63,079 nt of DNA from Elusimicrobiota bacterium (GTDB taxonomy: Bacteria > Elusimicrobiota > Elusimicrobia > UBA1565 > UBA9628): the NCBI GenBank assembly GCA_030696455.1, contig JAUYSH010000028.1:1-63079 (forward strand). The letters run 5' to 3'. Made by a program: the position numbers and the translations under genes. Below the pieces are notes generated by a model, which was not told the origin of the DNA, ran no database searches, and saw only the letters and a program-made list of their open reading frames with translations. Numbering within the stretch: the first letter of the stretch is position 1; the number at the start of each line of letters is the position of its first letter. Shown here in pieces: positions 10,590 through 62,512 of the stretch.

Positions 10590-11890
10590 TGGCGCGCAAG
10601 ACGGGCGTCCGCAACGTCTCCCGGGAGACCCGCGCTCCCATCGAACGCGCGGTCCTCGTCGGCGTGGGCCCCAAGTCGCAGACCGACGTGATCCGCGCGA
10701 GCCTCGAAGAGCTCAAGCGCTTGGTCGAGACCGCGGGCGCCCTCGTCGTGGGCGAAACCACCCAGGCGCTCCAGCGCTTCAATTCCTCGACGTTGATCGG
10801 AGAAGGCAAGGTGGAGGAGATCGTCGGAATGTGCGCCGGCCTTCGCGCCGGCACCGTGATCTTCGACCTCGAGCTCAGCGGAGCCCAGCAGAAGAACCTC
10901 GAGAAGGCGATGCCGAAGGTGAAGATCGTCGATCGCACGCGCCTCATCCTCGACATCTTCGCGCGGCGCGCGCGCACGAACGAGGGAAGCCTGCAGGTCG
11001 AGCTGGCGCAGCTCTCCTACATGCTCCCGCGCCTGACCGGCATCCGCGCGTTCTCCCAGCAGGCCGGCGGCATCGGCACGCGCGGCCCCGGCGAGCGCAA
11101 GCTCGAGTATGAGAAGCGCCACATCCAATACCGCATCAAGCACCTGCGCGCCGAGCTCGAGCGCGTTCGCTCCTCGCGCCGCCTGCGCCGCGAGCGCCGC
11201 GCCGGCGTGCCCGTGCCCCAGGTGGCCCTCGTCGGCTACACCAACGTGGGCAAGTCCACTTTATTGAACCAGCTGACGGGCGAGTACGCGGCGTACGCGG
11301 ACGACAAGCTCTTCGCCACGCTCGACCCGACCGCGCGCCGCGTGCGCCTGCCGAGCGGCGGCTGGGCGGTCATGACCGACACCGTCGGCTTCATCCAGCG
11401 CCTGCCGACCTCGCTGATCGCGGCGTTTCGCTCCACGCTCGAGGAGGTGGAGGCCGCCGACTGCCTCCTGGTCGTGCACGACGCGTCCTCGCCCGAGCTC
11501 GACGGCCAGCACGCCTCGGTCAAGCTCACGCTCGAGGAGCTCGCCACGGGCGGCATCCCGCGCGTCGAGGCCTTCAACAAGGCCGACCGCCTGAGCGCCG
11601 CCGAGCGGGACGATCTCGTGAGGCGCTACCCCGACGCGATCTTGATGTCCGCCGCCTCCGGCGACGGCCTCCCCGGGGTGCTCGCCCGCGTCGAAGACGC
11701 GCTCTCGAAGAAATGGCTGCTGCGCGAGATCGACGCTCCCGCGACCCTGGCCGGCTCCTGGACGTCGCGCTTATACGAATCCGCGCAAATCCTCGAGCGG
11801 AAGGTCATCGGGGAGAAGATACGCTTCCGCCTGCGGGTCACGGCGGAAAACTGGAGCCGCCTGCAGTCCTTATTGACTCCGGCCGCTTGA
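10589..11890 (+). CDS. hflX: GTPase HflX
   Basis: 433 residues. HflX rescues or splits stalled 70S ribosomes, especially after heat shock. The N-terminal subdomain has the helical part ending in QLSYMLPRL and the glycine-rich GGIGTRGPGERKLE loop (about 160-173). The G domain has GYTNVGKST (G1, about 215), DTVGFIQRLP (G3), FNKAD (G4) and SAASGDG (G5). Length is usual for the family. Its ATG overlaps the TGA of the preceding gene, so it is co-translated with miaA; the miaA-hflX neighbourhood is also seen in proteobacteria, where hfq lies between them (absent here). Confidence 0.93.
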   Translation: MARKTGVRNVSRETRAPIERAVLVGVGPKSQTDVIRASLEELKRLVETAGALVVGETTQALQRFNSSTLIGEGKVEEIVGMCAGLRAGTVIFDLELSGAQQKNLEKAMPKVKIVDRTRLILDIFARRARTNEGSLQVELAQLSYMLPRLTGIRAFSQQAGGIGTRGPGERKLEYEKRHIQYRIKHLRAELERVRSSRRLRRERRAGVPVPQVALVGYTNVGKSTLLNQLTGEYAAYADDKLFATLDPTARRVRLPSGGWAVMTDTVGFIQRLPTSLIAAFRSTLEEVEAADCLLVVHDASSPELDGQHASVKLTLEELATGGIPRVEAFNKADRLSAAERDDLVRRYPDAILMSAASGDGLPGVLARVEDALSKKWLLREIDAPATLAGSWTSRLYESAQILERKVIGEKIRFRLRVTAENWSRLQSLLTPAA

Positions 11891-47661: not shown

Positions 47662-48951
47662 ATGCTCAAGCGCCTCGTTGGAGCGTTCGGCCCGTCGGAA
47701 CGGGCCGCCGGCGCCGTGGCCGGCGGCTACGCCCTGGCCTCGGGGGTTTGGATCATCGCCTCGGACCGGCTCCTCGCCGCGGCGCCGATCGACGTCGGAA
47801 CGCTGACGCGGCATCAGACGCTCAAGGGCTGGTTCTTCGTCGCGACCACGGCGCTGCTGCTGTTCGTCTTCATCCGCCGCGCGCTCGAGCGCCTGCGGGC
47901 CAGCGAGGAGAAGTTCCGGACCTTGGTCGAGCGCTCTCTGGCGGGCATCTACATCATCCAGGACGGACGCTTCGCCTACGTCAACTCCCGCTTCGGCGAG
48001 GTGTTCGGCTACCCGCCCGAGGTCATCACGGGGCGGCTAACCGTCGACGATCTCGTCGCCCCGGCCGACCGCCCGGTGGTGCGCGAGAACCTGCGCCGGC
48101 GTACGGCCGGCGAGATCCAGCACCTGAACTACGCCTTCACCGGGGCGCGCGCCGACGGCGCGTCCATCGACGTCGAGGTCGCCGGCGAGATGACGACCCT
48201 GAGCGGCCGCCCGGCCGTGATCGGGACCTTGCTCGACCAGACCGAGAGGAACAGGCTCCAGCGTCGCGCCCTCGAGGATCAGAAGGTCGAGACCTTGGGC
48301 CTGCTGGCCGGTGGCCTCGTCCACGATTTCGGGAACGTCGTCGCGGCCGTCATCGGCCACGCCGAGCTGCTCGCGCTCGGGCTCCCGAAGGGCTCCGCCG
48401 CCCGCCGCGACGCCGAGATCATCCAGGACTGCGCCCGGCACGCCTCGGACCTGACCCGTCAGCTCCTCACCTTCAGCCGCCGGCAGAAGCCGGCGCCCGT
48501 TTCCCTCGACCTCAACGCGACCGTGCGCGGCTGCGAGGCCATGCTGCGCAGCGCCGCCGGCTCCCTGATCCGGCTCGACCTGCTCCTCGAGGACGGCCTC
48601 GGCTCCGTCCGCGCCGCGCCGGGGCAGCTCGAGCAGGCCATGATGAACCTGGTCATCAACGCGCGCGACGCGATGCCGCGCGGCGGCGTCGTCGTCGTTT
48701 CCACGGCGCGCGGCGGCCTGAGCGGCAAGCCCTGCGCCGTCCTCGCCGTGCGCGACATGGGCGCGGGCATGGAGCCGGAGACCTTGGCCCGGGTCTTCGA
48801 GGTGTTCTTCACGACGAAGGGAGACAAGGGCACGGGCCTGGGACTGCCCACGGTGCAGCGCATCGCCGAGAACGCCGGAGGCCGCGTGGAGCTCGTCAGC
48901 TCTCCCGGCGTCGGCACCACGGCGCGCGTTCTTCTGCCGCTTATCCTATAA
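47662..48951 (+). CDS. PAS-domain sensor histidine kinase
   Basis: 429 residues from ATG 47662; ATG 47647 would overlap the TATGCT hexamer (47646-47651). Two hydrophobic segments (about 20-35 and 58-74), a PAS domain (about 84-205: FRTLVERSLAGIYIIQDGRF), then HisKA with LAGGLVHDFGNVVAAVIGHAELL (HDFxN type, phospho-His in VHDF) and an ATPase domain: MMNLVINARDAMP (N box), VRDMGAGME (G1), FFTTKGDKGTGLGLPTV (F and G2). No regulator is adjacent, so it is an orphan kinase. Confidence 0.88.
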   Translation: MLKRLVGAFGPSERAAGAVAGGYALASGVWIIASDRLLAAAPIDVGTLTRHQTLKGWFFVATTALLLFVFIRRALERLRASEEKFRTLVERSLAGIYIIQDGRFAYVNSRFGEVFGYPPEVITGRLTVDDLVAPADRPVVRENLRRRTAGEIQHLNYAFTGARADGASIDVEVAGEMTTLSGRPAVIGTLLDQTERNRLQRRALEDQKVETLGLLAGGLVHDFGNVVAAVIGHAELLALGLPKGSAARRDAEIIQDCARHASDLTRQLLTFSRRQKPAPVSLDLNATVRGCEAMLRSAAGSLIRLDLLLEDGLGSVRAAPGQLEQAMMNLVINARDAMPRGGVVVVSTARGGLSGKPCAVLAVRDMGAGMEPETLARVFEVFFTTKGDKGTGLGLPTVQRIAENAGGRVELVSSPGVGTTARVLLPLIL

Positions 48952-48952
48952 T
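48947..48952 (+). promoter_or_regulatory. Perfect -10 hexamer upstream of dapB
   Basis: TATAAT ends 9 nt before ATG 48962 and overlaps the stop of the kinase gene. Leaderless or 2-3 nt leader. Confidence 0.55.
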
Positions 48953-48961
48953 CCCCTCACC

Positions 48962-49654
48962 ATGGCATCTCCCCTCAAGATCGCGGTGTGCGGAGCGTCG
49001 GGACGGACGGGCTCGCGCGTGGCCGCGCTCGCCTGCGTGGATTCCCGGTTTCACCTGCTGGCCCGGGTCGGACGGGCGCAGGCCGCGTCGTTCGAGGACG
49101 AGGCCGGAGCCTGCGGCGCGGTCATCGACTTCACCACGCCCGACTCCTGCGTCCGGTTCGCGGCCGCGTGCGGCCGGAACAAGGTTCCCTTCGTGACCGG
49201 CACCACCGGGCTCACCGTCGTGCAGCGCGCCCAGGTCGCCGCCGCCGCGCGCAAGACCGCGGTGTTCATGGCCCCCAATTTCAGCCGCGGCGTGACGATG
49301 CTGCTTCATCTCGCCGAGGCCGCCGCGCGGCGTCTTCCCGATTACGACGCCGCCATCGTCGAGACCCACCACAAAGGGAAGAAGGACGCCCCTTCCGGCA
49401 CGGCGCTGCGCCTGGCGCAAGCGGTCGCCGAGGGCCGGCGCGACGATGCGGCCGTTCCCACCTCCTCCCTGCGCGTGGGCGGCGTCGTCGGCGATCACAG
49501 CCTGACCTTGGCCGGCTCGTTCGAACGGCTCACGCTTTCGCATACCGCGGACTCGCGCGACGCGTTCGCGCTCGGCGCGCTCGAGGCGGCGCTCTGGACG
49601 GCGCGCAAGAAGCCGGGACTATACGACATGCTCGACCTGATGGGGCTGAGATGA
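48962..49654 (+). CDS. dapB: 4-hydroxy-tetrahydrodipicolinate reductase
   Basis: 230 residues, at the short end of the family. Reduces HTPA in the diaminopimelate/lysine pathway. GASGRTGSR (11-19) binds NAD(P)H; IDFTTPD, VTGTTGL and ETHHKGKKDAPSGTA (catalytic H136/H137 and K141) are intact. The C-terminal half has the tetramer strand LRVGGVVGDHSLTLAG. First gene of a rightward operon ending with panC. Confidence 0.93.
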   Translation: MASPLKIAVCGASGRTGSRVAALACVDSRFHLLARVGRAQAASFEDEAGACGAVIDFTTPDSCVRFAAACGRNKVPFVTGTTGLTVVQRAQVAAAARKTAVFMAPNFSRGVTMLLHLAEAAARRLPDYDAAIVETHHKGKKDAPSGTALRLAQAVAEGRRDDAAVPTSSLRVGGVVGDHSLTLAGSFERLTLSHTADSRDAFALGALEAALWTARKKPGLYDMLDLMGLR

Positions 49655-49920
49655 GGCTCTGGAAGGCCTGGATCGAATTTTTCGAGGAGGAAAGCCCCGA
49701 GGCCCCGCGCTTCGATCCGGTCCACCTCGCCGTCGTGCTCGTGGCGTGCCAGGCCGCCGTCGGCATCCTGTTCTGGCTGCTGTGGACCGCGATGGTCTAC
49801 GAAGGAGGCTTCGCCTCGGGCGAGGGGAAGTTCGGAAATTCGCTCGCCCTGCTCCTCCTCGCCGCGATCGTCGAGGCCTTGCGGCGCGCGGACCGGCGTC
49901 ACGCGCGCAAATCGAAGTGA
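49651..49920 (+). CDS. Small two-helix membrane protein
   Basis: 89 residues, ATG overlapping the dapB stop (ATGA). A helical amphipathic start (RLWKAWIEFFEEESPEA) precedes two hydrophobic segments (VHLAVVLVACQAAVGILFWLL and FGNSLALLLLAAIVEAL) and a basic end (RRADRRHARKSK). No family recognised. Its stop overlaps folK. Confidence 0.65.
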   Translation: MRLWKAWIEFFEEESPEAPRFDPVHLAVVLVACQAAVGILFWLLWTAMVYEGGFASGEGKFGNSLALLLLAAIVEALRRADRRHARKSK

Positions 49921-50414
49921 AGCCGCGCAAGGCGCTGCTGCTGCTCGGCGCCAATCTCGGAGACCGCGCCGCCGCCTTGCGCCGCGCCGTCGCGGGCCTG
50001 AAGGTCCTCGAAGGGGTGCGCGTGCTCAAAACCTCGAGGATCTACGAGACCGCGCCGGTCGGCCCCAGCGACAAGCCCTACCTGAATCAGGCCGTCGAGC
50101 TGTCGACGGACCGCACCGCGATCGGGCTGCTCATCGAGGCGAAGCGGCTCGAGGCCCTCGCGGGACGCCGTCCCGGGATCCGCTGGGGCGCCCGCGCCCT
50201 CGACGTCGACCTGCTCGCCTTGGGGCGCGAGAGGATAAGGACGCCTTGGCTGAGCGTGCCTCATCTCGCGACGGCCGGACGGGCCTTCGCCCTGGCGCCG
50301 CTGAGCGACGTGGCCCCCTCGTTCCGCCCGGACGGGCGCCGGACCGTAAGCGCCCTGCTCGCGGCTATGAAGCCGGACCCGCGAATTGTTAAGCTTTGGC
50401 GAAATGGCCGATAA
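49917..50414 (+). CDS. folK: 2-amino-4-hydroxy-6-hydroxymethyldihydropteridine pyrophosphokinase
   Basis: 165 residues from the GTG at 49917, which overlaps the previous TGA. Folate pathway enzyme using ATP. LLLLGANLGDRAAALRRAV, SRIYETAPVG, LNQAVEL, and RWGARALDVDLLALG with the two Mg-binding Asp residues, then LSVPH. The pattern usually ending in R[W/F]GPRxxDxDxL has A for P. Other folate genes are not in the window. It overlaps panB by 11 nt. Confidence 0.9.
   Translation: MKPRKALLLLGANLGDRAAALRRAVAGLKVLEGVRVLKTSRIYETAPVGPSDKPYLNQAVELSTDRTAIGLLIEAKRLEALAGRRPGIRWGARALDVDLLALGRERIRTPWLSVPHLATAGRAFALAPLSDVAPSFRPDGRRTVSALLAAMKPDPRIVKLWRNGR
50390..50395 (+). promoter_or_regulatory. Possible internal promoter for panB
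   Basis: TAAGCT ends 8 nt before ATG 50404, inside the end of folK; fits the leaderless layout and argues against the TTG at 50386 as start. Confidence 0.4.
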
Positions 50415-51252
50415 AACGAAGCCCGCCGCCTACGCCGGCGCCGCCAAGACCGTGACGATCTCCACCTTGCTCGATCTCAAGCGCAAGGGCGTCAAGATCG
50501 CGATGCTCACCGCCTACGATTTTCCGACCGCGCGCCTGGCGGAGGAGGCCGGGGTGGACGTGCTCCTCATCGGCGACTCCGTCGGCATGACCAAGCTCGG
50601 CTACGAGAGCACCTTGCCCGTCACCATCGACGAGATGGTGCACCACGTCAAAGCGGTCAAGCGCGGCTCCTCGCGCGCCCTGCTCGTGGCCGACATGCCT
50701 TACCTGTCCTATGAGATCGACCCCAAGGAGGCCGTGCGCAACGCCGGCCGCCTGCTGAAGGAAGGCGGCGCGCACGCCGTCAAGGTCGAGGGCGGGATGG
50801 AGGTGGCCTCGACCATCAAGGAATTCCTGAAGATCAACGTGCCCGTGTTCGGCCACCTCGGCCTCACGCCCCAGGCCGTCAACCGGCTCGGAGGCTACAA
50901 GGTGCAGGGCCGCAGCCCCGAGGCCGCCGAGAAGATCCTGACCGAGGCGCGGATATTGGAGGGCGCGGGCTGCGCCGCGGTGGTGCTCGAGTGCGTGCCC
51001 GCCGACCTCGCAAAGGAGATCACCAAGCGCCTGCAGATCCCCACCATCGGCATCGGCGCCGGGCCGCACTGCGACGGCCAGGTGCTCGTCAGCGACGACA
51101 TGCTGGGCCTGACGGAGTCCGGACCGACCAAGTTCGTGAAACGGTACGCTGATATGCGGTCGCTGTCGCTCAAGGCCATCGGCGACTACTGCCGCGAAGT
51201 CCGGGACGGCTCCTTCCCCGGCCCCGAGCACTCCTTCACCTCCCAAAAATGA
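50404..51252 (+). CDS. panB: 3-methyl-2-oxobutanoate hydroxymethyltransferase
   Basis: 282 residues. Makes ketopantoate from alpha-ketoisovalerate and methylene-THF. KIAMLTAYDFPTARLAEEAG, LIGDSVGMTKLGYEST, ADMPYLSYE, HLGLTPQAVN and VVLECVPADL (catalytic Glu) are all present, then GIGAGPHCDGQVLV. Fully normal length. Separated from panC by one hydrolase gene. Confidence 0.95.
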   Translation: MADKTKPAAYAGAAKTVTISTLLDLKRKGVKIAMLTAYDFPTARLAEEAGVDVLLIGDSVGMTKLGYESTLPVTIDEMVHHVKAVKRGSSRALLVADMPYLSYEIDPKEAVRNAGRLLKEGGAHAVKVEGGMEVASTIKEFLKINVPVFGHLGLTPQAVNRLGGYKVQGRSPEAAEKILTEARILEGAGCAAVVLECVPADLAKEITKRLQIPTIGIGAGPHCDGQVLVSDDMLGLTESGPTKFVKRYADMRSLSLKAIGDYCREVRDGSFPGPEHSFTSQK

Positions 51253-52127
51253 TCTGGCTGGCCGCCGCGATCATCTTCGCCGCCGCCGTCTACGCTCTGT
51301 GCTGGTGGGGCGCGGGCATCATCCTGCATCCGCCGGCCATGTCGCCGATGTGGATTTTTCCCGAGCAATTCGGTCTTCGATATGAGAAGGTCGCCTTCAA
51401 GACGCGCGACGGCCTGGAGCTCAAGGGCTGGTTCATCCCCTCGACCGCGGGCGAGAAGCGCACGATCGTCATGTGCCACGGCTGGGGCGACAACAAGGGC
51501 GAGCTGCTCAAGCAGACCTACTTCCTCAACGAGTACGGCGGCTTCAACCTGCTGTACTTCGACTTCCGCTCGCACGGCGAGAGCGAAGGCGAGATCACGA
51601 CCATCGGCGGCCTCGAGATGATCGACTTCGACGCGGCGATCGAGTGGCTGCGCAAGGCCAAGCCCGAGCTGTCCGATTCGATCGGCGTGTTCGGCCTGTC
51701 CATGGGGGCGGCGGTGACCGTCGCCTCGCTGCCGAAGCATCCCGATCTGCGCTGCGCCGTCGTCGAGAGCCCGTTCTCCGACTACCGCACGGTGATCAAG
51801 CGCTGGGCGTGGAACAACATGAAGCTTCCCTACTACCCGCTCGTCGCGATCACCTTGCTCATCCTGCGCTCGCGCGTGAAGGACCCCGAGATCGACCTCT
51901 TCAACCCCGTCGAGGCCGCGCCGAAGATCGCCCCCCGGCCGCTGTTCGTGATCGGAGGAGAGTTCGACCGGCTGATGACTCCCGAGGACGTGCGCAAGAT
52001 CTTCGATTCGGCGCGCGAGCCCAAGCAGCTCTGGATGGTGCCGGAGGCCTGGCACGCGAAATGCCGCGAGGCCGCGGGGATGGAGTACGACACGCGGGTG
52101 ATCGGGTTCTTCTCGAGGAATCTGTGA
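51249..52127 (+). CDS. Alpha/beta hydrolase with an N-terminal membrane anchor
   Basis: 292 residues, ATG overlapping the panB stop. One N-terminal hydrophobic helix (LAAAIIFAAAVYALCWWGAGIIL) probably anchors it facing the periplasm. Hydrolase core: oxyanion CHGWGDNKGE, nucleophile elbow GLSMGAA (Ser near 150), Asp in GGEFDRLMTPED, His in PEAWHAKC. This is the BAAT/YqkD-like group of membrane hydrolases with unknown substrate. It is inserted between the two pantothenate genes in one operon. Confidence 0.78.
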   Translation: MIWLAAAIIFAAAVYALCWWGAGIILHPPAMSPMWIFPEQFGLRYEKVAFKTRDGLELKGWFIPSTAGEKRTIVMCHGWGDNKGELLKQTYFLNEYGGFNLLYFDFRSHGESEGEITTIGGLEMIDFDAAIEWLRKAKPELSDSIGVFGLSMGAAVTVASLPKHPDLRCAVVESPFSDYRTVIKRWAWNNMKLPYYPLVAITLLILRSRVKDPEIDLFNPVEAAPKIAPRPLFVIGGEFDRLMTPEDVRKIFDSAREPKQLWMVPEAWHAKCREAAGMEYDTRVIGFFSRNL

Positions 52128-52176
52128 CCGAACATATGCGAGGAAATGGTCGCATCGATAGCCGTTGGAAGCGACC

Positions 52177-52980
52177 ATGACTGTTCCGGTCGTCCGGACG
52201 AAGAGGGCCCTGCGGACGCTCGTCGCGGCCTGGCGCGCCAAGGGCCTCTCCGTCGGGTTCGTGCCCACGATGGGCGCCCTGCATCGAGGGCATGCGGCGC
52301 TCGTGAAACGCTCAGCCCTCGAAAACGGCAAAACAATAGTGTCCGTCTTCGTCAACCCCCTCCAGTTCGGCCCGAACGAGGACTACGGCCGCTACCCGCG
52401 CGCGCTTCCCGCCGACCGCACGCTCGTCGCGGCCGCCGGGGCCGACGCGGTGTACGCGCCCTCCGCGAAGGAGATGTATCCGAAAGGCTTTCGGACTTAT
52501 GTCGAGGTCGAGGGCCTGTCGGACCTTTATTGCGGGAAGTACCGTCCGGGGCATTTTCGGGGCGTCGCGACCGTCGTACTGAAATTATTCAACCAGGTCC
52601 GGGCCGACCGCGCCTATTTCGGCGAGAAGGATTGGCAGCAGGTACGGATACTCGAAGACATGATCCGCGACCTCGACATGAACATACGGCTTGTTCGCGT
52701 CCCGATCGTGCGCGAGGCCGACGGCCTGGCGCTGTCGAGCCGGAACGCCTATTTGTCGCCCGCCGAGCGCCGCGCCGCGCCGGCCCTGCGGGCGGCGCTT
52801 GAAGCGGGCAAAATGGAAGCGCGCCGCCGCAACTCCCGGCCCGAGACCATCGGCGCCTCCGTGCGCCTCGCCCTCGCGGGCTCCGGACTCAAGCTCCAAT
52901 ACGCCTCCGTCCTGGACGGCCGCCTGCTCGCCGCCGCCTATCTGGGCCGCACGCGGCTGATTGACAACATTAGACTCTAA
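52177..52980 (+). CDS. panC: Pantothenate synthetase
   Basis: 267 residues. Joins pantoate and beta-alanine with ATP. VGFVPTMGALHRGHAAL (HIGH-like motif at 36-39), SVFVNPLQFGPNEDYGRYPR, YRPGHFRGVATVVLKLFN, YFGEKDWQQ and LALSSRNAYLS (KMSKS-like loop) are complete. Start ATG 52177 is preferred over a TTG at 52165. PanD is not seen, so beta-alanine comes from elsewhere. Confidence 0.95.
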   Translation: MTVPVVRTKRALRTLVAAWRAKGLSVGFVPTMGALHRGHAALVKRSALENGKTIVSVFVNPLQFGPNEDYGRYPRALPADRTLVAAAGADAVYAPSAKEMYPKGFRTYVEVEGLSDLYCGKYRPGHFRGVATVVLKLFNQVRADRAYFGEKDWQQVRILEDMIRDLDMNIRLVRVPIVREADGLALSSRNAYLSPAERRAAPALRAALEAGKMEARRRNSRPETIGASVRLALAGSGLKLQYASVLDGRLLAAAYLGRTRLIDNIRL

Positions 52981-52989
52981 AGTTACTAT
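52961..52989 (+). promoter_or_regulatory. Consensus promoter of the HAMP gene
   Basis: TTGACA (52961-52966), exactly 17 nt, then TACTAT (52984-52989). The hexamer ends 8 nt before ATG 52998, so the best promoter of the window specifies a leaderless mRNA. The -35 lies within the end of panC. Confidence 0.7.
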
Positions 52990-52997
52990 AAACCCAC

Positions 52998-53585
52998 ATG
53001 ACCTCCAAAGGACACGCCCACGAGACGGCCGCCCCCGCGAAGCCTTCCTATAAGAGGCAGCAGTACTGGGTCGACGCCCCGCTCCAGCTCCAGATGGTCG
53101 GGTTCGTCCTGCTCCTGATCGCGGCGAGCCTCCTGCTGACCGCGTTCTCGGTTTTCCGCGGCGTCCAGGAATCCTCGATCGCCTCGCGCCAGATCTTCCA
53201 CTCCATCGAATGGATCAAGGGCGCCCTGCGCGCCCCGCTGCTGCTCGCCTCGGCGATCTCCTTGCTGGCCGGAGGCCTCGTCACCTTGTTCTGGTCGCAC
53301 CGCTTCGCGGGCCCCCTGCGCGTGATCTCCGCCGGAATCGCCCGCGTGCGCCACGGCAACCTCGCCGTGCCCGTGCGGATCCGGACGACGGACGCCCATC
53401 AGGAGTTCGCCCGGGAATTCCAGCTCATGCAGGACGAGCTGCGCAAGCTGGTCGCCGCCGACCGCGCCCATCTGGCCGAGGCCGTCACCTTGCTCGAGGC
53501 CTCCGAAAAATCCTCGCCTTCGGACGAGAACATCCCCAAGGCGCTGGATCACCTGCGCCAGACCTGCGCGAAGTACCACCTTTGA
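52998..53585 (+). CDS. HAMP-domain membrane protein
   Basis: 195 residues. Cytoplasmic start, TM1 (MVGFVLLLIAASLLLTAFSVF, about 34-54), a short periplasmic loop, TM2 (APLLLASAISLLAGGLVTLFW), then a HAMP domain (SHRFAGPLRVISAGIARVRHGNLAVPVRIR) and a coiled-coil-like end. There is no kinase, cyclase or methyl-acceptor domain, so it may regulate a partner in trans. It is co-translated with the next, exported protein and shows a textbook TTGACA promoter. Confidence 0.78.
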   Translation: MTSKGHAHETAAPAKPSYKRQQYWVDAPLQLQMVGFVLLLIAASLLLTAFSVFRGVQESSIASRQIFHSIEWIKGALRAPLLLASAISLLAGGLVTLFWSHRFAGPLRVISAGIARVRHGNLAVPVRIRTTDAHQEFAREFQLMQDELRKLVAADRAHLAEAVTLLEASEKSSPSDENIPKALDHLRQTCAKYHL

Positions 53586-55792
53586 ACCGCAGCCTCGTCG
53601 TCGCGGCGTTCCTGGCCACCCGGGCCTTCGGGGCGGACGCGCCGGCGCCCTCCGCGCAGGTCAACGCGGCCCCTCTCGCCCTCCTGACCGAGACCTTCGG
53701 CGAGCCCGGCGTGGAGACGCTCGGCTCTCGCGGCGTCCTCGTGCTGCACGGCAAGCGCGGGGCCCGGGGATTGGCCGCGGTTCACTGGAAGGGCTTCGGG
53801 GAGCTCTCGCGCGCCGCGACGTCCTGCCTCGCCCTGGCCTCCTCCGCCGACGCGCTGGGCCGGGAGCCGGAGCCCTCCGGCCCCGACCTGGGGCTGGGGG
53901 CCTGCCGCGCCCTGCCGCCGGAAGGCATGATGACCCCGTCCCTGCACGCGGCGGCCTCCTTGCTCCAAGCCGGCCACGAGGAGCGCTGGGCGCTGAAACT
54001 CGCGAAAGCCCCATTCTCCGGGCCGGCAGGACGACCCAACCTCTTCGAGACCGCCTGGGGCAAGGATCTGATCCAGCGCCGCCACGCCGACGCCCTTGAG
54101 AACGGCGCCGGCCTGGCCAAGCTGGTGTTCGACGAATTCCTCGCCGGTCCCCGCCCCGACAAGGACGCTGCGGCCCACTTCGCGGCCGAGGCCGCGGCCC
54201 GCGGCGCGTCGTCGCCGGAGAAGCTCATCGCCCGCGACGCCTCCCGCGGCGCGCTCTCCGACGAACTGCGGGAGCAGCTTCGGCGCACGCTCGTCAACGA
54301 GCGCCGCCGCTGGGCCGCCGCGAAGGCGCGCGCCGCGGCCGCGGACCTTCTCGGCAAGGCCGCCGTGAAGCGCGAGCTCGAGGACCTGCGCGGCATCGCC
54401 AAAGGCCTGTCCTCCCGTCCCGACCTCCTCCCGGCCCTCGAGGCGGCCGCGGGCCGCGACGCCGCCGCCCCGGGCGGAGCGAAGCTGCGCTCGGCCGGCA
54501 TTCACCTGCAGGAGCCCACCCGCCTCGGCCAGCACGAGCTCGGAGACGAGGTCCTCGTCTCCGGCGCCTACTGGATCGACGGCCTCAAGGAGAACGAGTC
54601 CGTCGCCGTCGACGAAACCGTGGCCGTCGAAACAGAGCGCGGCTTCGACCTCATCGAAACCCGCTCGCACAAACGGCGCAACGGAGGCCCTTACACGTTC
54701 GCGCGCAAGCTCCGGGTCGAGGAGCCCCGGGCTTTCGGAGTTCGCGCCCTGGTGTCGGCGAGCGGCGTCCTACTCAACGAGCGCGTCGACGTTCCCCTCG
54801 CCCGCGACTTCGAGCTCGCGCTGCTCAAGGAGTCGGAGGCCGCGGGCCTGCTCGCCGCCTGCCGCCCGAAGGACGCCGAGGCGGCCTACCTCGCGCTCGA
54901 GATCTTGGTCGCCGAACCGGCCAAGGTCAAGCCCCAGTACAAGAAGCTCTCGGAGAGAGCCCGAAAGGCTCGCGACGCCGCGAAGCGCGGCGCGGAGACC
55001 CTCATCAAGCTCGAGGAGTCCCTGACGGCGGCCCGCGCCGACTCCTCCCCCCAACTGTGCAAATACGAGACCGGCAACGTCGACGCCGCGCTGAAGCTCC
55101 TCCGAGGCCTGCCCCCCGGCTGCGACCGGAATCTGCCCGAGCTTCACGCCCTGCGCGCGACGATAAAGCGGCGCGCCGTCGATCAGAGCTGGTTCCTGAA
55201 GGCCTCCGCCGACGCGCGCTCCAAGCGCAAGTCCTGCCAGCTCGACGCCGCGCGCCGGCGCTGGTCGGACGCGCTGGCCTCGCTCGACGCCGATCCGGGC
55301 GCGCGCTGCGGCCGCGTCGCCGAGGAAGAGGCTCTCGCGAAGACCGATTTCGCCGAGCTCACCCGCGACATCGCCTGGAGCGACGAGCTCGACAAGGCCC
55401 TCGCCCGGGCCGAGGCGGAAACCGCCCCGGGCCGCCGCCTGGACATCCTGCGTCCGGTGACCTCGCGCCTCGGCGCGCTGAACGCGAAGTGCTTCGGCGC
55501 CCACGCCAAGCGCGCGTCCGCGCTGTCCCTGGCGGCCGCCAAGTCCCTGACGGCCCCCTCCGAAAGCGAGGCGGAGCGCCGCCTGCCCGCCGACGCCGCG
55601 ATCGCCTCCGTCGTCGCGGAGGTCCGGACCGAACGCGCGCGGCGCCTCGAGGCCGCCGGCGCCGCCGAGAGGGCCGCCGCCCCTCCTCCGGCCCCGAAGG
55701 CCGAGGCGCCCGCCCTCCCGCCGAAGCCTTCCGTGAAGAAGCCCGCAAAGCGTCCCGCGCGCAACTCGAAGCAGGCCGAGGCGAACCAATGA
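53582..55792 (+). CDS. Large exported helical protein of unknown function
   Basis: 736 residues from a TTG that overlaps the previous stop (TTGA). Signal peptide LNRSLVVAAFLATRAFGA (the initiator is Met in the cell). Most of the protein is Ala/Glu/Arg-rich helix with no recognised domain; a small beta section lies at about 325-425 (GDEVLVSGAYWIDGLKENES, then VAVETERGFDLIETR), and Cys residues are paired in the C-terminal half (CRPKDAEA, CKYETG, CDRNLPE), possibly helical repeats with disulfides. The tail is Pro/Lys-rich. Operon with a HAMP and a PDZ protein suggests an envelope complex. Confidence 0.6.
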   Translation: MNRSLVVAAFLATRAFGADAPAPSAQVNAAPLALLTETFGEPGVETLGSRGVLVLHGKRGARGLAAVHWKGFGELSRAATSCLALASSADALGREPEPSGPDLGLGACRALPPEGMMTPSLHAAASLLQAGHEERWALKLAKAPFSGPAGRPNLFETAWGKDLIQRRHADALENGAGLAKLVFDEFLAGPRPDKDAAAHFAAEAAARGASSPEKLIARDASRGALSDELREQLRRTLVNERRRWAAAKARAAAADLLGKAAVKRELEDLRGIAKGLSSRPDLLPALEAAAGRDAAAPGGAKLRSAGIHLQEPTRLGQHELGDEVLVSGAYWIDGLKENESVAVDETVAVETERGFDLIETRSHKRRNGGPYTFARKLRVEEPRAFGVRALVSASGVLLNERVDVPLARDFELALLKESEAAGLLAACRPKDAEAAYLALEILVAEPAKVKPQYKKLSERARKARDAAKRGAETLIKLEESLTAARADSSPQLCKYETGNVDAALKLLRGLPPGCDRNLPELHALRATIKRRAVDQSWFLKASADARSKRKSCQLDAARRRWSDALASLDADPGARCGRVAEEEALAKTDFAELTRDIAWSDELDKALARAEAETAPGRRLDILRPVTSRLGALNAKCFGAHAKRASALSLAAAKSLTAPSESEAERRLPADAAIASVVAEVRTERARRLEAAGAAERAAAPPPAPKAEAPALPPKPSVKKPAKRPARNSKQAEANQ

Positions 55793-57102
55793 GAATCATC
55801 ACCTTCGTCCTGCTGTCCTTCCTCCCGCTCTGCGCGCAAGCCGCGGCCGTGCGACCCAAGCGTCCCGCGGGCAAAGCCGCCGCCGCGAAGCCGGCCGCGG
55901 CCGTCCAGGCTTCGGCGCCCCACCCCGCCGCCGCGCCGAAGCCCGAGAGCGCCGCGCTCGATGAAATCGCGCTGTTCGGCCTGGGGACCGACCTCGTCGC
56001 CCAGGGGGACGGCCTCGTCGTCTCCTTCGTCCGCGCCGGCTCGCGGGCCGAGAAGGCGGGGCTCAAGGCCGGCGATCAGCTGCTGCGACTGGACGGCGCC
56101 GCCGCCTCCCGCCCGCAGGTCGCCGCGGCGCTGCGCGCCTGGACTCCGGGCACGCGGCTGCCGCTCATCGTGCGGCGCGGGCTCGAGGTCCTTTCCCTCG
56201 AAACCGCCCCGATCCCGGCGGGCCGCGACTACGCGCGCGGAGACAAGGACCTCTCCGAGCACGAGAAGTCCCTGGCCGCCGAGCGCTCCGCCCAGGCCGC
56301 CTCCGGCGGCCGCGCCGTCGTCAAGGCGATGGCCCCGCTCACCGTCCCGGTCCGCGCCGACCAGGGCCTGTGGCTGCGCTTTCCCAAGGGCCTGCCCGCG
56401 GGCCTCAAAAAGGGCGACGAGCTCGTCGCCGAGTCCGCGACGGGGCTGACGGTGGACGCCTCCCTCGATTTTCTCGCCGTGCCCCCCGGCTCCAAGGTCC
56501 GCGGCCGCGTCTTCGACGCCGTGGACGACGGACAGACGCGCACGGTGCGCCTGGCGTTCTACGCGCTCGACCTCGCCGGCGGCGGGACCTACACGACGCT
56601 CGGCTACGCGACCGCCGTCTCGGGCGACCAGCGCATGGCCCGCGTCGGTCCGGGCGGCACCCTCGTCGCGGCCGCTCCCCTTCCCGACGCCAAGCGCCGC
56701 GGCCCCGAGCCCGTGCTCGATATGGACGCGCGTCTGCGCGTGCGTCTCCTGGATCCTCTCGTCATCGACGAGCCGCCCTCCTTCTGGCGCGCGGGCCCCG
56801 GGATGTGGGTCAAGACGTCGGAGACCGGCGGACGCCGCCTTTACGAGATCACGCACGCGATCGCCGGCCGTTCGGCGGAGAGCGCGGGCCTCAAGGTCGG
56901 CGACCGCCTCGACGCGATCGGCGGGCGCTCCACGGAGAAGATGGACTTCGCCGAGGCCGTAGACCGTCTCTACGGCAAGCCCGGCTCCGACGTCGAGGTC
57001 TCCGTGGTGCGCGGCAAGAGCCAGGTCCTCAAGCTCAAGCGCGGCATGCGCTGGACCGGCGGCAAGTCCGAGCCTTTGCCCCTCGCCTACAACGTTCAGT
57101 AA
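55789..57102 (+). CDS. Exported protein with two PDZ domains
   Basis: 437 residues, ATG overlapping the previous stop. Signal peptide MRIITFVLLSFLPLCAQA, then a Lys/Ala/Pro linker. PDZ 1 (about 70-145: FVRAGSRAEKAGLKAGDQLLRLDG), a beta-rich middle (about 175-340) and PDZ 2 (about 355-425: ITHAIAGRSAESAGLKVGDRLDAIGG). No protease domain, so it likely binds C-termini of other envelope proteins. Forms a three-gene unit with the HAMP and helical proteins; it ends 3 nt from a convergent gene. Confidence 0.8.
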   Translation: MRIITFVLLSFLPLCAQAAAVRPKRPAGKAAAAKPAAAVQASAPHPAAAPKPESAALDEIALFGLGTDLVAQGDGLVVSFVRAGSRAEKAGLKAGDQLLRLDGAAASRPQVAAALRAWTPGTRLPLIVRRGLEVLSLETAPIPAGRDYARGDKDLSEHEKSLAAERSAQAASGGRAVVKAMAPLTVPVRADQGLWLRFPKGLPAGLKKGDELVAESATGLTVDASLDFLAVPPGSKVRGRVFDAVDDGQTRTVRLAFYALDLAGGGTYTTLGYATAVSGDQRMARVGPGGTLVAAAPLPDAKRRGPEPVLDMDARLRVRLLDPLVIDEPPSFWRAGPGMWVKTSETGGRRLYEITHAIAGRSAESAGLKVGDRLDAIGGRSTEKMDFAEAVDRLYGKPGSDVEVSVVRGKSQVLKLKRGMRWTGGKSEPLPLAYNVQ

Positions 57103-57105
57103 GGC

Positions 57106-58941
57106 CTAAGGGCGGGCTTCCAGCTTCGAGAGGAGCGCCCTCGCCTCGGCGAGGTTCTCCGGATACTCCGCCGGATCGGCGGGGTCCTTCGTCTCCTCGA
57201 CCATCTTAAGGACCCGGATCGCGTCGTCCTTGCGCTTGAAGTGCAGGTAGGCCTCGGCCAGCGGCAGGTGGTTGGCGGTGTAGCGCGGCGAGAGGCGCAG
57301 CGCCGTCTCGAACTCCTCGAGAGCCTTCTTCTTGCTGCCCCCCGCGAAGCCCGGCACCTGCCACAGGATCTCGGCCAGGACGTTGTGCGCGCCGCCATGA
57401 GACGGATCGAGCCGGATCACCTCGGCCATCTCTTTTTTGAGGGGCTTGATGATGAACAGAGCATTCATCAGGCCCTTCGTCTCGCCCCAGCGCCCGAGCG
57501 CCACGCCAAGCCAGAAATGGGCCTCCGCGGTCACCGAGGACAGCGCCACGGACTTCTCGCAATCGGCCTTGGCCGACTCGTACAAGGCGAGCTTATCGGC
57601 GCGCTTCTCTTTTTTTTCCGCGAGCCGGACCTTGGCCCGGCACAGCCGCCACAGATAGGGCGCCTTCCACGCCTCGGACTCGCCGATGATCTCGCTTTTG
57701 AACGTCTCATTGAGACCGGCGATGTTCTTGTCGAGATTGTCTCCGAGGTGGCGCTGGAAATACTGCGCGTCGAACGACTCCGGCGAAGCGAGCTTGTTCG
57801 CCCGCGCGGGCAGGGCCAAAACTGAAAATACCGCAATGCCTGACACCGCCATCGCGGCGGCCTTGGCGGCCCAGTGGGCGGCGCGGGTCATCGAGTCGCT
57901 CATGGTTTTGGCTCCGGCGTCCGCGAAGGAGACGGTCTTCTTGAAAGGCAGAGCGGCGGGCGACACCTGGCCGGCGACGGCGACGCAGGGCACGCCGGCT
58001 TTCCTCGCCGCGCGGGCCAGGGCCACGGGGGCCTTGCCGAACAGGCTCGTCTTGTCGAGGCGGCCTTCGGCCGTGACGACGATATCGGAGATCTTGAGCG
58101 CCTTGAGCGCGCCCGTCTTGTCCAGGATCCAGGCGGCGCCGGGCACGAGCTCCGCGCCCGCGAAGGCGAGCAGGCCCGCGCCCAGGCCGCCCGCGGCCCC
58201 CGCGCCCGGCACGGCGGCCACCGAAACGCCCAGGTCCCGGTGCAGCGCCCGGGCCCAGACGGCCAGCGCGCGGTCGATCCGCGCGACCTGCGCGGGCGTC
58301 GCTCCTTTCTGCGGGCCGAACACGCGCGCCGAGCCCTTGGGCCCGAGCAGCGGGTTGGTCACGTCGGACAGCGCGATCACCTTCACGCCCGAGAGCAGGA
58401 CGCGGACCGCGCGCGCGTCGACCGAGCACAGCCGGGACAGGTCCGCGGCGCCGTCGGGCAGCTCGCGGCCGTCGCAGTCGAGCAGGCGCGCGCCGAGGGC
58501 CCGGGCCATGCCCGCGCCGCCGTCGCTCGACGCGGTGCCGCCCATGCCCACGATGACCGTGCGCGCGCCCCGGCGGACCGCGTCGCGGATCAGATCGCCG
58601 GTGCCGCGAGAGGTCGCGGCCATGGGCCGCCGCTTGCCCGCGGGCACGAGGGCCAGGCCCGAGGCGCGGGCCATCTCGATGACCGCTATTTTATTCGGGG
58701 CGATCCAGAGGTAGGACGCGCGCCGGCGCTCGCCGAGAGGACCGCGCGCGGGGGCCGAGACGACGGCGCCGCCCATGGAGACCTTGAGAGCGTCGATCAG
58801 GCCGTCGCCGCCGTCGGCCACGGGAATCTCGACGATCTCGGCATCCTTGAAAACGGAGCGGACGCCGCGGGCCAAGGCCCGAGCGGCGTCCACGCACGAC
58901 AGGCTCCCTTTAAAGGCGTTGGGAGCGACAAGAACCCTCAT
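57106..58941 (-). CDS. Glycerate 2-kinase fused in frame to an exported-type TPR protein
   Basis: 611 residues without a stop. Residues 1 to about 365 are a complete GarK/GlxK-type glycerate kinase: VLVAPNAFKGSLSCVDAARA, VADGGDGLIDAL, TSRGTGDLIRDA, GMGGTASSDGGAGMARALG, SDVTNPLLG, FGPQKGATP, VTAEGRLDKTSLFGKAP. Residues about 347-382 then read like a signal peptide (MTRAAHWAAKAAAMAVSG, IAVFSVLALPARA) followed by a TPR-like domain (AHFWLGVALGRWGETKG, EFETALRLSPRYTANHLPLA). The second part may be a separate overlapping gene starting at ATG 57852 or slightly upstream (57888 or 57900). TACGGT 6 nt before ATG 58941 fits the leaderless pattern. Confidence 0.7.
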   Translation of the reverse strand: MRVLVAPNAFKGSLSCVDAARALARGVRSVFKDAEIVEIPVADGGDGLIDALKVSMGGAVVSAPARGPLGERRRASYLWIAPNKIAVIEMARASGLALVPAGKRRPMAATSRGTGDLIRDAVRRGARTVIVGMGGTASSDGGAGMARALGARLLDCDGRELPDGAADLSRLCSVDARAVRVLLSGVKVIALSDVTNPLLGPKGSARVFGPQKGATPAQVARIDRALAVWARALHRDLGVSVAAVPGAGAAGGLGAGLLAFAGAELVPGAAWILDKTGALKALKISDIVVTAEGRLDKTSLFGKAPVALARAARKAGVPCVAVAGQVSPAALPFKKTVSFADAGAKTMSDSMTRAAHWAAKAAAMAVSGIAVFSVLALPARANKLASPESFDAQYFQRHLGDNLDKNIAGLNETFKSEIIGESEAWKAPYLWRLCRAKVRLAEKKEKRADKLALYESAKADCEKSVALSSVTAEAHFWLGVALGRWGETKGLMNALFIIKPLKKEMAEVIRLDPSHGGAHNVLAEILWQVPGFAGGSKKKALEEFETALRLSPRYTANHLPLAEAYLHFKRKDDAIRVLKMVEETKDPADPAEYPENLAEARALLSKLEARP

Positions 58942-58947
58942 CGAGGA

Positions 58948-58953
58948 ACCGTA
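58948..58953 (-). promoter_or_regulatory. Weak -10 hexamer of the glycerate kinase gene
   Basis: TACGGT on the minus strand ends 6 nt before ATG 58941; same spacing as the stronger leaderless promoters, but a poorer hexamer. Confidence 0.3.
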
Positions 58954-58995
58954 TCAGGCCGTTTATTAAGAAAGGAGATCCGCGGCCCTGTACGT

Positions 58996-60303
<1,308 letters not shown>

Positions 60304-60395: not shown

Positions 60396-60845
60396 ATGAA
60401 CTGGCGAAGCAAGTGGGCGTTCTGGGCGACGGTCGCGGCCGTGCTGGCCTTGATCAGCGTGCCCTCGTACACCTGGGTATCCGCGCTCAACGACTACCGG
60501 CGCTTCCTCTCGGGCTGGGAGCCCGCGCCGCTCAAGAACACGGGCACGACCTTCACTCCTCACGGAGGCGGAAGAGAAAGCCTCCCCACCTTGACCTCGG
60601 TCGAGTTCCGCCACCGTGCTCCGAAGGCCCGATCGGTGGAGCTCGTCGGGGATTTCAACGCGTGGCGGCCGGGCCTGCTGCGGATGGGCCGCGACGGGGA
60701 CGGCATATGGACCGTCTCGGTCCCCGTCGTGAAAGGACGGCATAAATATCTATTTCTGGTCGACGGAGAGCCCAAGGTCGACGACCGCGCGGACACGGCG
60801 GACGGCCCCGAGGGGCGCCGCGTGTCGGTGAGGATCGTCAAGTGA
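60396..60845 (+). CDS. Membrane-anchored CBM48 (glycogen-binding-like) protein
   Basis: 149 residues from ATG 60396. One N-terminal membrane helix (WAFWATVAAVLALISVPSY), a linker, then an early-set/CBM48 domain (about 68-149): VEFRHRAPKARSVELVGDFNAW is the family signature, followed by GIWTVSVPVVKGRHKYLFLVDG. Such domains bind alpha-glucans in branching enzymes and AMPK-beta. Its stop overlaps the next gene (GTGA), a GH57-like protein, so the pair may handle alpha-glucan at the envelope. Confidence 0.8.
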   Translation: MNWRSKWAFWATVAAVLALISVPSYTWVSALNDYRRFLSGWEPAPLKNTGTTFTPHGGGRESLPTLTSVEFRHRAPKARSVELVGDFNAWRPGLLRMGRDGDGIWTVSVPVVKGRHKYLFLVDGEPKVDDRADTADGPEGRRVSVRIVK

Positions 60846-62512
60846 GCTTCGCCCTGTTCCTCACGCTGCTTGCCGGGAGCGCCTCAGGCCAGACGCTTCC
60901 CGGCGCGCTGGTTTGGCTGCCGCCGGAAGGCTTCAAGCAATGGAGCGGCGTGGACGCGCTCATGAGGAACGACCGGGACCTTATGCTCACGATCGGAGTT
61001 TCGCCGGCGATGGCGACGCCGCTGGTGAAGGCCGCGTTGGCTCCATGGATCGAGAAAGGACGCCTCGAGGTGGCCGCGCGCATCGACGGAGATCCCATCC
61101 TGACGATGATCGCCGGCCATCCCGCCGCGCCCCGGCCCCAGGACCCGCTCGAGCGGGTGGTCCACGCGCGCGAACGCCTCGAGAAGGCGCTGGGCTCCCT
61201 CCCGTCGGGCTTCGTGCCCGGCGCCGGAGCGGTGGACGCGGCCGTAGCCTCCTCTCTGGGCCAAAGCGGAGCGGCGTGGATCCTGGCCGGCCCTTACGCC
61301 GGACCCGAGGAGCCCTGGTCCCAGACGGGGACCGCGGTCCTCGTGCCCTCCGGCGCGACGGCCCTCTACGACGAGAGCGCGTCGACGTCCTCGGTTTTCC
61401 TCGCGGCCGCGGCCTCCATTGCGCGTCCCTCGCAGGGTTGGGCGACCGTCGGCGCCCTGGCCCGCGCCCGGGCCGACCTCCACGGCGAACCCTCCCCCGA
61501 CGCGGCCTGGCCCGCCTGGGATTCCGAGGCCGCGGCTTCCCCGCCCGCAGGGGAAGGCGCCCGGGCGGCGTGGGAGGCGTACGGCGCGGCGGCGGAAACC
61601 CTGCAGCGCTACCAGAACTCCGGCTCGGCCGACCTCCGCACGCTCGACGCGGCCATCGACCTGCTCCGACGCTGCCAGGCCGCCCGGTATTACCGCGCCG
61701 CCGATGACGAGAACGTCCCCGCGGGGCTGAGGACGGCCTTGGTCGCCGTCTACAAGCGCTTGAAGCTGCCCGCGCCCCATGCGCTGTACGGCAGCGGTCC
61801 CTCCATCTCCGCCGCGACCGCGGCCGCCGGCCCGAGCGACGGGCCCACGGGCGTGCGCGCGCTGTCGGGGCCGTCCTGGTTCGAGTTCCGCGCCCCGCCG
61901 GGCACCATCGCACTTCTCCCGACCCTGACGCCGGGCGCCACCGCGGCCATCGCGGACGGCGGAACGGCCGCCGATCCATGGCGCATCCTGAGCCTGCGGG
62001 GCGACTGGGACGACGCCGAGGTCCGCTTGACCGTGCGCGTGGGCCGCGCCTCGCATGCCGCGCCGCGCCCGGTCTACGAGCTCTACACTGATTTCAACCG
62101 GGTGCTCGGCGCCGGCCGCGTGCCCCTGCTCGAGGGCCGGGCAGCCGTCGTCCTCGCTCGAGATGCCTGGGAGCTGGCGCTGTCCATCGCCGGCGACGAG
62201 GCGCGGCTGTTCCGAGCGCGCGGCGGCGGCGAGCCGGATGAGATCGCCGTGTTCAAAGCTCATTGGAAATCCGACCGGGGAGAAGTCGTCGTCTCGGTGC
62301 CGCGCTCCTTCATGCGCGGCAATCCGGCGCGATGGGGCTGGGCCGCGGTCGCGCTCGCGGAGGATCCGGCGCGCCCCGGGCGCAGTCCCGCCGCTTCGCT
62401 GGTCGGCGCCGACGGCACCATCCTGCTCGGGGTCCTAGCCCCCGCGGGGCAGCAGAAGCCGATACTCTCGCGCGCGAACGCGCGCGTCCCCGCCGCCCGC
62501 CTCGACCCCTAG
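60842..62512 (+). CDS. Exported protein with degenerate GH57-like and beta-sandwich domains
   Basis: 556 residues from a GTG overlapping the CBM48 stop. Signal peptide to about SASG. Residues 17-320 look like a shortened GH57 (alpha-amylase/amylopullulanase) barrel with LMLTIGVSPAMATPLV near the start and LLRRCQAARYYRAADDEN ... LRTALVAVYKRLKLPAP where GH57 proteins have their helical region. The catalytic Glu/Asp segments are not evident, so it may bind rather than cut glucan. Residues 340-540 are a beta-sandwich like the glucodextranase C-terminal module (ELYTDFNRVLGAGR, VYELY). Confidence 0.5.
   Translation: MSFALFLTLLAGSASGQTLPGALVWLPPEGFKQWSGVDALMRNDRDLMLTIGVSPAMATPLVKAALAPWIEKGRLEVAARIDGDPILTMIAGHPAAPRPQDPLERVVHARERLEKALGSLPSGFVPGAGAVDAAVASSLGQSGAAWILAGPYAGPEEPWSQTGTAVLVPSGATALYDESASTSSVFLAAAASIARPSQGWATVGALARARADLHGEPSPDAAWPAWDSEAAASPPAGEGARAAWEAYGAAAETLQRYQNSGSADLRTLDAAIDLLRRCQAARYYRAADDENVPAGLRTALVAVYKRLKLPAPHALYGSGPSISAATAAAGPSDGPTGVRALSGPSWFEFRAPPGTIALLPTLTPGATAAIADGGTAADPWRILSLRGDWDDAEVRLTVRVGRASHAAPRPVYELYTDFNRVLGAGRVPLLEGRAAVVLARDAWELALSIAGDEARLFRARGGGEPDEIAVFKAHWKSDRGEVVVSVPRSFMRGNPARWGWAAVALAEDPARPGRSPAASLVGADGTILLGVLAPAGQQKPILSRANARVPAARLDP

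Follow-up and report, generated by a model that had tools for sequence, protein, structure and literature searches.

Two adjacent genes of an Elusimicrobiota contig, encoding a 736-residue protein (HEL) and a double-PDZ protein (PDZ2), behave as a pair: they are strictly paired among related genomes, share an overlapping junction and diverge in a correlated manner. The best reading of the two is a lineage-restricted exported scaffold and its adaptor. The preceding HAMP gene stands apart from the two and has occupied this site for longer.

The window, by which we denote the whole analysed stretch of 63,079 nucleotides, belongs to a genome of 4.0 Mb assembled in 147 contigs. On its plus strand the order is folK-like, panB, alpha/beta hydrolase, panC, and then HAMP, HEL and PDZ2, so that the last three form the end of a folK-panB-hydrolase-panC operon (Table 1). 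An earlier note on this DNA had reported three overlapping same-strand genes at 52998-57102, and they were found as reported, with 4-nt overlaps at both the HAMP/HEL and the HEL/PDZ2 junction. All three are true genes rather than chance frames because dN/dS lies at 0.11-0.65 in each of the 14 comparisons of a gene with its counterpart in a close relative, which indicates purifying selection. HEL (0.30-0.65 versus five close relatives) and PDZ2 (0.32-0.58 versus four) show similar, faster evolution, while HAMP (0.11-0.23 versus five) is under tighter constraint.

Table 1 Features of the HAMP-HEL-PDZ2 locus and its host operon. Positions are those of the window.
Feature	Position	Strand	Remarks
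folK-like HPPK	49746..50414	+	PF01288 E 4.6e-28; host operon, outside module
panB	50386..51252	+	host operon
alpha/beta hydrolase	51249..52127	+	host operon
panC	52165..52980	+	host operon; -35 box within its last codons
promoter-like site TTGACA-17-TACTAT	52961..52989	+	matches 10/12; end 8 nt before HAMP ATG
HAMP gene, 195 aa	52998..53585	+	two TM segments and HAMP; separable neighbour, not fixed member
HEL gene, 736 aa	53582..55792	+	TTG start at 53582, signal peptide
PDZ2 gene, 437 aa	55789..57102	+	signal peptide, two PDZ domains

Pairing of HEL and PDZ2

A profile of HEL matched 23 of 58 relatives and, in a sample of 294 genomes from across the phylum, 21, and the matches were restricted to three families of one order. 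Scanning 84,980 species with one motif only, a procedure that distant kin could escape, returned 22 stretches and 15 confirmed loci, all of the latter in Elusimicrobia/Elusimicrobiota (15/15). Since HEL had no match in the plasmid collection, spread by plasmids was rejected. The profile of the PDZ2 barrel (described below) matched 24 of the 58 relatives, and it hit PDZ2 alone in these genomes, with one match each. Both proteins are present in 22 genomes, neither in 33, and one only in 3, which corresponds to a Fisher p of 1e-12 over the 58 genomes when kinship is ignored. In the HEL-only genome (G044) the contig ends inside HEL, and in the two PDZ2-only genomes (G002 and G005) the contigs break off within PDZ2 or immediately before it. 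Because the contigs end there, G002, G005 and the split case of G039 were rejected as real cases of PDZ2 without HEL.

A start codon permitting the 4-nt HEL/PDZ2 overlap is found in 18 of 20 readable relative loci and in the window (exceptions L033 and L030); given that HEL starts were chosen near the end of HAMP or panC and those of PDZ2 close to the stop codon of HEL, this count shows only that such a start codon exists. In L030 (genome G010, 8239-11745) the HEL frame extends across the PDZ2 region and reaches 1169 aa, probably owing to an assembly frameshift. Across the 16 genomes for which all three data sets were available, HEL and PDZ2 protein distances have a correlation of 0.93 with each other and of 0.78 and 0.79 with those of the host operon; the partial correlation is 0.62, with no permutation test behind the values of 0.93 and 0.62.

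These results bear on the explanation that HEL and PDZ2 have no joint function and merely stay adjacent in a conserved operon. The entire neighbourhood is indeed conserved, panB, hydrolase and panC included; clustering the surroundings of 21 loci yielded many clusters without labels, some of which are antisense frames. However, the two genes are present or missing jointly while the operon remains, and their divergence correlation exceeds that with the operon. In the host-operon tree, built only from matches above 60% of query length, locus L064, which has HAMP only, lies inside a clade having all three genes (support 0.98), and loss of both HEL and PDZ2 is therefore indicated there. We consider mere adjacency quite unlikely. 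Genomes with the pair are also larger than those without it (medians 3.8 versus 2.65 Mb, 25 versus 22 genomes, p 4e-4; within family f1, 3.4 versus 2.65 Mb, 15 versus 20 genomes, p 0.015), a comparison that ignores kinship and assembly completeness and plays no part in our conclusions.

Domain layout of HEL and PDZ2

The earlier note had described HEL as a 736-residue exported helical protein of no known family. The length, a signal peptide and the absence of any Pfam match bear this out, and no name for the family came up in the databases and literature searched; the description as helical has to be amended for a predicted beta sandwich. A signal-like N-terminal sequence, which would direct export, is seen in the window and in most of the orthologs printed. 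In the model (from 16 sequences, pLDDT 85.5, pTM 0.57; full-length residue number equals model number plus 18) a helical part at about 29-291 with a small beta hairpin is followed by an Ig-like sandwich of 7 strands at about 301-404, a second helical part at about 409-699 and, after about 699, an Ala/Pro/Lys-rich C-terminal tail of low confidence. The sandwich compares to Ig-like domains with Z of about 12 (5x7g with Z 12.1 over 100 residues, RbmA with Z 11.0), a match that tells little about function.

Other fold and sequence searches gave little for HEL. Its two Foldseek matches at E 0.001 or better were to AlkC, a DNA glycosylase, with TM of only 0.12-0.13, and this candidate was rejected; by VIA-align the similarity to AlkC falls mostly on the Ig-like part. 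Viral fold matches at E 0.001 or better were absent, and the PDB sequence search gave weak ribosomal S7-like and other matches only (best 0.012), which we regarded as chance. A TPR model matched 1 of 21 HEL orthologs (E 0.006), the helical parts being barely compared by fold.

In the alignment of HEL (A1; 20 of 22 relative loci and the window, excluding L030, whose frame runs on, and L044, at a contig end), Cys 427, 493, 514, 552, 576 and 637 are conserved without exception (21 of 21 sequences); all six belong to the C-terminal helical part, where the model puts them close to the ends of helices. Cys 82 and 108 co-occur in the same 8 of 21 sequences. The spacing of the cysteines suggests that they staple two helices, 493-514 and 552-576. 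VKOR, one possible disulfide maker, has matches in 5 of the 58 genomes and 4 of the 23 HEL genomes, the window's genome not being among them; this scarcity speaks against ready disulfide formation but forms no clear pattern, and a link to a disulfide oxidase via VKOR was rejected.

PDZ2 had been called an exported double-PDZ protein. The signal peptide and the two PDZ domains, the latter confirmed by Pfam scan, are present, but a third folded domain is predicted to sit between the PDZs. As in HEL, a signal-like N-terminal sequence, pointing to export, is seen in the window and most orthologs printed. According to the model (from 14 sequences, pLDDT 73.5, pTM 0.44), the signal peptide and an Ala/Pro/Lys-rich linker are followed by a PDZ domain (about 61-144), a helix (about 157-180), a barrel (about 184-333) and a CTP-type PDZ domain (about 334-423). 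The nearest fold to the first PDZ is HtrA2 (Z 11.9) and that to the last is CtpA (Z 13.8, 30% identity over 87 residues). Neither an S41 catalytic domain, with only PDZ models above Pfam cut-offs, nor a trypsin-like protease domain (Pfam, NCBIfam) was found in PDZ2; NCBIfam protease models match over the PDZs, far below cut-off. Orthologs of family f2 have a C-terminal extension resembling a third PDZ. The alignment of PDZ2 (A2) excludes L030, L033 (start unclear), L036 and L044 (gene off contig).

The barrel resembles, in the model, the C-terminal domain of VirB10, TrbI, ComB10 and CagY (Z 10.8-12.5 over 118-135 residues). It was aligned to CagY (6odi, Z 11.8, 135 residues, rmsd 4.6), to ComB10 (2bhv, Z 10.8, 124 residues, rmsd 3.7) and to the type IV secretion core entries 6gyb (Z 12.5) and 7o3j (Z 12.0), whose matched chains are presumably VirB10, the row titles naming no chain. 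VirB10 chains were absent among the 50 Foldseek matches listed for PDZ2 and surfaced after realignment. On the sequence side, TrbI (PF03743) is among the families listed for 0 of 19 PDZ2 orthologs, hhalign of the barrel against Elusimicrobiota TrbI gave 15% probability (E 0.0018, 52 columns), and the PDB sequence search with the barrel gave no match. Kinship of the barrel with VirB10 would thus agree with the structure comparison and has no support from sequence.

In VirB10/TrbI, antenna helices cross the outer membrane. The PDZ2 model (pLDDT 73.5) contains no helix of at least 4 residues within model residues 166-310, and so no antenna helices. Unlike the VirB10 group, the PDZ2 barrel has no TrbI Pfam match, appears to have no helices inside it and is flanked by PDZs, and its locus has no type IV secretion genes that were recognised. 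Among the literature searched there is no described example of a PDZ/VirB10-like/PDZ layout. Separately, short TrbI-like proteins (open frames of about 208-297 aa) occur in conjugation-like clusters of other Elusimicrobiota (L081-L089).

The HAMP gene and its promoter

Hydropathy and profile searches gave the HAMP protein two hydrophobic segments and a HAMP domain. The window's protein scores 17.1 bits against the Pfam HAMP model, below the cut-off of 25; PF00672 is matched by 12 of 13 orthologs (best E 6.5e-6), and a PDB profile match links the protein to the sensory rhodopsin II transducer HtrII (E 1.1e-5). No output domain (kinase, MA, GGDEF) was found in Pfam and NCBIfam scans, in which weak full-length kinase models match only across the TM-HAMP part. 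The earlier description as a HAMP protein without output domain therefore holds. As in HAMP-bearing transducers such as that of sensory rhodopsin II, a TM segment is followed by HAMP, whereas the signalling output domain of those transducers was not detected here. The HAMP alignment (A3) excludes L027, a fragment, and L029, whose start is unclear.

The earlier note had expected all three genes to co-occur in relatives and had read them as sensor, scaffold and adaptor of the envelope. The co-occurrence holds for HEL and PDZ2 in 22 of 58 genomes, but HAMP is separable. At a threshold of at least 129 bits, HAMP orthologs are present in 29 of the 58 genomes, 15 with and 14 without the pair; a further 10 genomes have the pair only and 19 have neither (Fisher p 0.29). 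At the 14 pair-less loci (L064-L077) HAMP still adjoins the hydrolase or panC, and at the f2 loci (n=8) there is no HAMP match and HEL comes after panC or the hydrolase. Some HAMP match occurs in 55 of 58 genomes, and distant HAMP-only relatives are common across the phylum. An obligate three-gene unit was rejected, as HAMP occurs without the pair and the pair without HAMP. The HAMP gene is independent and more widely kept, and in some lineages it is on the shared transcript.

A three-part system of HAMP sensor, HEL scaffold and PDZ adaptor is consistent with the three genes being adjacent in family f1 and in genus g16 of f3 and with their shared promoter; set against the 14 genomes with HAMP but not the pair, the 8 loci with the pair but not HAMP, and the tighter dN/dS of HAMP, it seems to us very unlikely. 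What stands of the sensor-scaffold-adaptor proposal is an exported, scaffold-like HEL and a co-occurring, PDZ adaptor-like partner; HAMP as the sensor of one three-part system is not supported. A 204-aa HAMP-only protein also adjoins one of the TrbI-like clusters mentioned above (L087, 800-1411, minus strand).

The site upstream of HAMP had been named the best promoter of the window. A promoter-like site is present (Table 1), but three further sites in the window score 10 too, and it is therefore one of four joint best. Its score alone is not above chance, with 1 site found in 48000-60000 compared to 0.4 in shuffles (sd 0.6). Recurrence in relatives is better evidence for a promoter than the score itself. 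Of 36 related stretches, 30 carry TTGACA upstream (23 of 28 before HAMP, and 7 of 8 before HEL in f2), the unusable stretch L027 being counted as a miss, and the strict two-box pattern is satisfied in 14 of the 36. TTGACA mostly coincides with the panC codons of a conserved Leu-Ile-Asp-Asn end, and its conservation there is therefore confounded. At the five loci without panC upstream, TTGACA is kept in three (L032, L033, L038) and absent in two (L074, L075). Given the short distance between the site and the HAMP ATG, the HAMP-HEL-PDZ2 message could be nearly leaderless.

Possible roles of the pair

Our tentative proposal, which we hold to be a serious possibility rather than a probable one, is that a HEL scaffold and a tail-binding PDZ2 adaptor are two halves of one exported device for envelope clients. 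Both proteins would be exported, most likely to the periplasm, and would form a physical complex. HEL would serve as a rigid multi-domain scaffold consisting of a helical domain, the Ig-like sandwich and a helical region braced by disulfides between its cysteines. PDZ2 would be its adaptor, whose two PDZ domains, on either side of the VirB10-like barrel, may bind protein tails, and the barrel may self-associate. The pair would then hold or organise envelope client proteins. In agreement with the earlier note, which saw no obvious counterpart, no named counterpart of the set was found, and the literature searches listed no paper recognisable as a description of it; arrangements in which a helical scaffold of the periplasm has a PDZ partner are already known.

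One such arrangement is that of Pseudomonas aeruginosa, where the TPR lipoprotein LbcA is the client selector for CtpA (PMC11021448). Like CtpA-LbcA, HEL/PDZ2 would combine a helical-repeat periplasmic partner with a CTP-type PDZ protein (PMC11021448). The two differ in that PDZ2 has no S41 protease domain, unlike CtpA, and in that HEL, unlike LbcA, has no TPR match noted above the Pfam cut-off and has the Ig-like sandwich and conserved cysteines. HEL and PDZ2 could be imagined to act in the same way as LbcA does for CtpA, choosing clients for a carboxyl-terminal processing protease that is a separate protein. The last PDZ of PDZ2 is closest to the PDZs of CtpA and CtpB, the LbcA-CtpA logic of helical repeat plus PDZ is a precedent (PMC11021448), and every relative has S41 proteases (58 of 58). 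Yet they are equally present where HEL and PDZ2 are absent, and there is therefore no co-occurrence signal; PDZ2 has PDZs of its own; and the named families at the locus include no recurrent protease gene. We regard client selection for a protease as rather unlikely.

The second arrangement is that of the Campylobacter flagellar motor, in which PflC, a degenerate protease, bears two PDZ domains and PflA consists of a beta sandwich and a TPR superhelix (PMC12222027). PflA/PflC would resemble HEL/PDZ2 in placing a sandwich and helical-repeat scaffold beside a protease-less protein that has two PDZ domains and a proline-rich linker (PMC12222027); PflC keeps a degenerate trypsin domain where PDZ2 has a VirB10-like barrel. 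PflA and PflC serve the flagellum, whereas FlgI was not found in the HEL genomes, which presumably have no flagellum.

PDZ2 barrels might then form a ring like VirB10 with HEL as spokes like PflA/PflC, the type IV pilus being a candidate for the machine in question. The fold matches to CagY and ComB10, the PflC/PflA precedent (PMC12222027) and the presence of PilM in 58 of 58 genomes are in line with this. PilM, being universal, does not discriminate; the antenna helices of VirB10 are absent from the PDZ2 model; the neighbours at the locus are folate and pantothenate genes, with no recognised secretion gene among them; and FlgI, one flagellar marker, is found in 0 of 23 HEL genomes and 1 of 58 overall. 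A flagellar motor role is therefore unlikely and a flagellar scaffold was rejected, and a ring scaffold of this kind is in our estimation unlikely. More specifically, VirB10-like barrels without membrane-crossing helices might form an envelope ring with disulfide-braced HEL as spokes and PDZs capturing client tails, which we find improbable; if true, a part of a secretion ring would be reused as a client-sorting or assembly platform, previously undescribed in Elusimicrobiota.

Returning to the scaffold and adaptor reading, exported scaffolds and PDZ adaptors are poorly known beyond model bacteria, and most Elusimicrobiota have yet to be cultured. A two-gene module with strict pairing that joins an unnamed 736-residue family to an unusual PDZ/VirB10-like/PDZ layout is a small, expressible target, and if the PDZ2 barrel oligomerises it would represent a secretion-ring fold at work outside secretion.

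Two further frames lie beyond PDZ2 in the window. At 57106-58941 on the minus strand is a single 611-aa frame in which residues 3-363 form a glycerate kinase (PF02595), fused to a hydrophobic segment and a TPR domain. One alignment covers both parts in L024, L025, L026, L028, L031, L041 and L042, and in L065 the TPR protein is a 240-aa gene of its own with a separate signal-like start. At 60842-62512 on the plus strand, a 556-aa protein with no Pfam match at E 0.01 is conserved at the same distance in several relatives.
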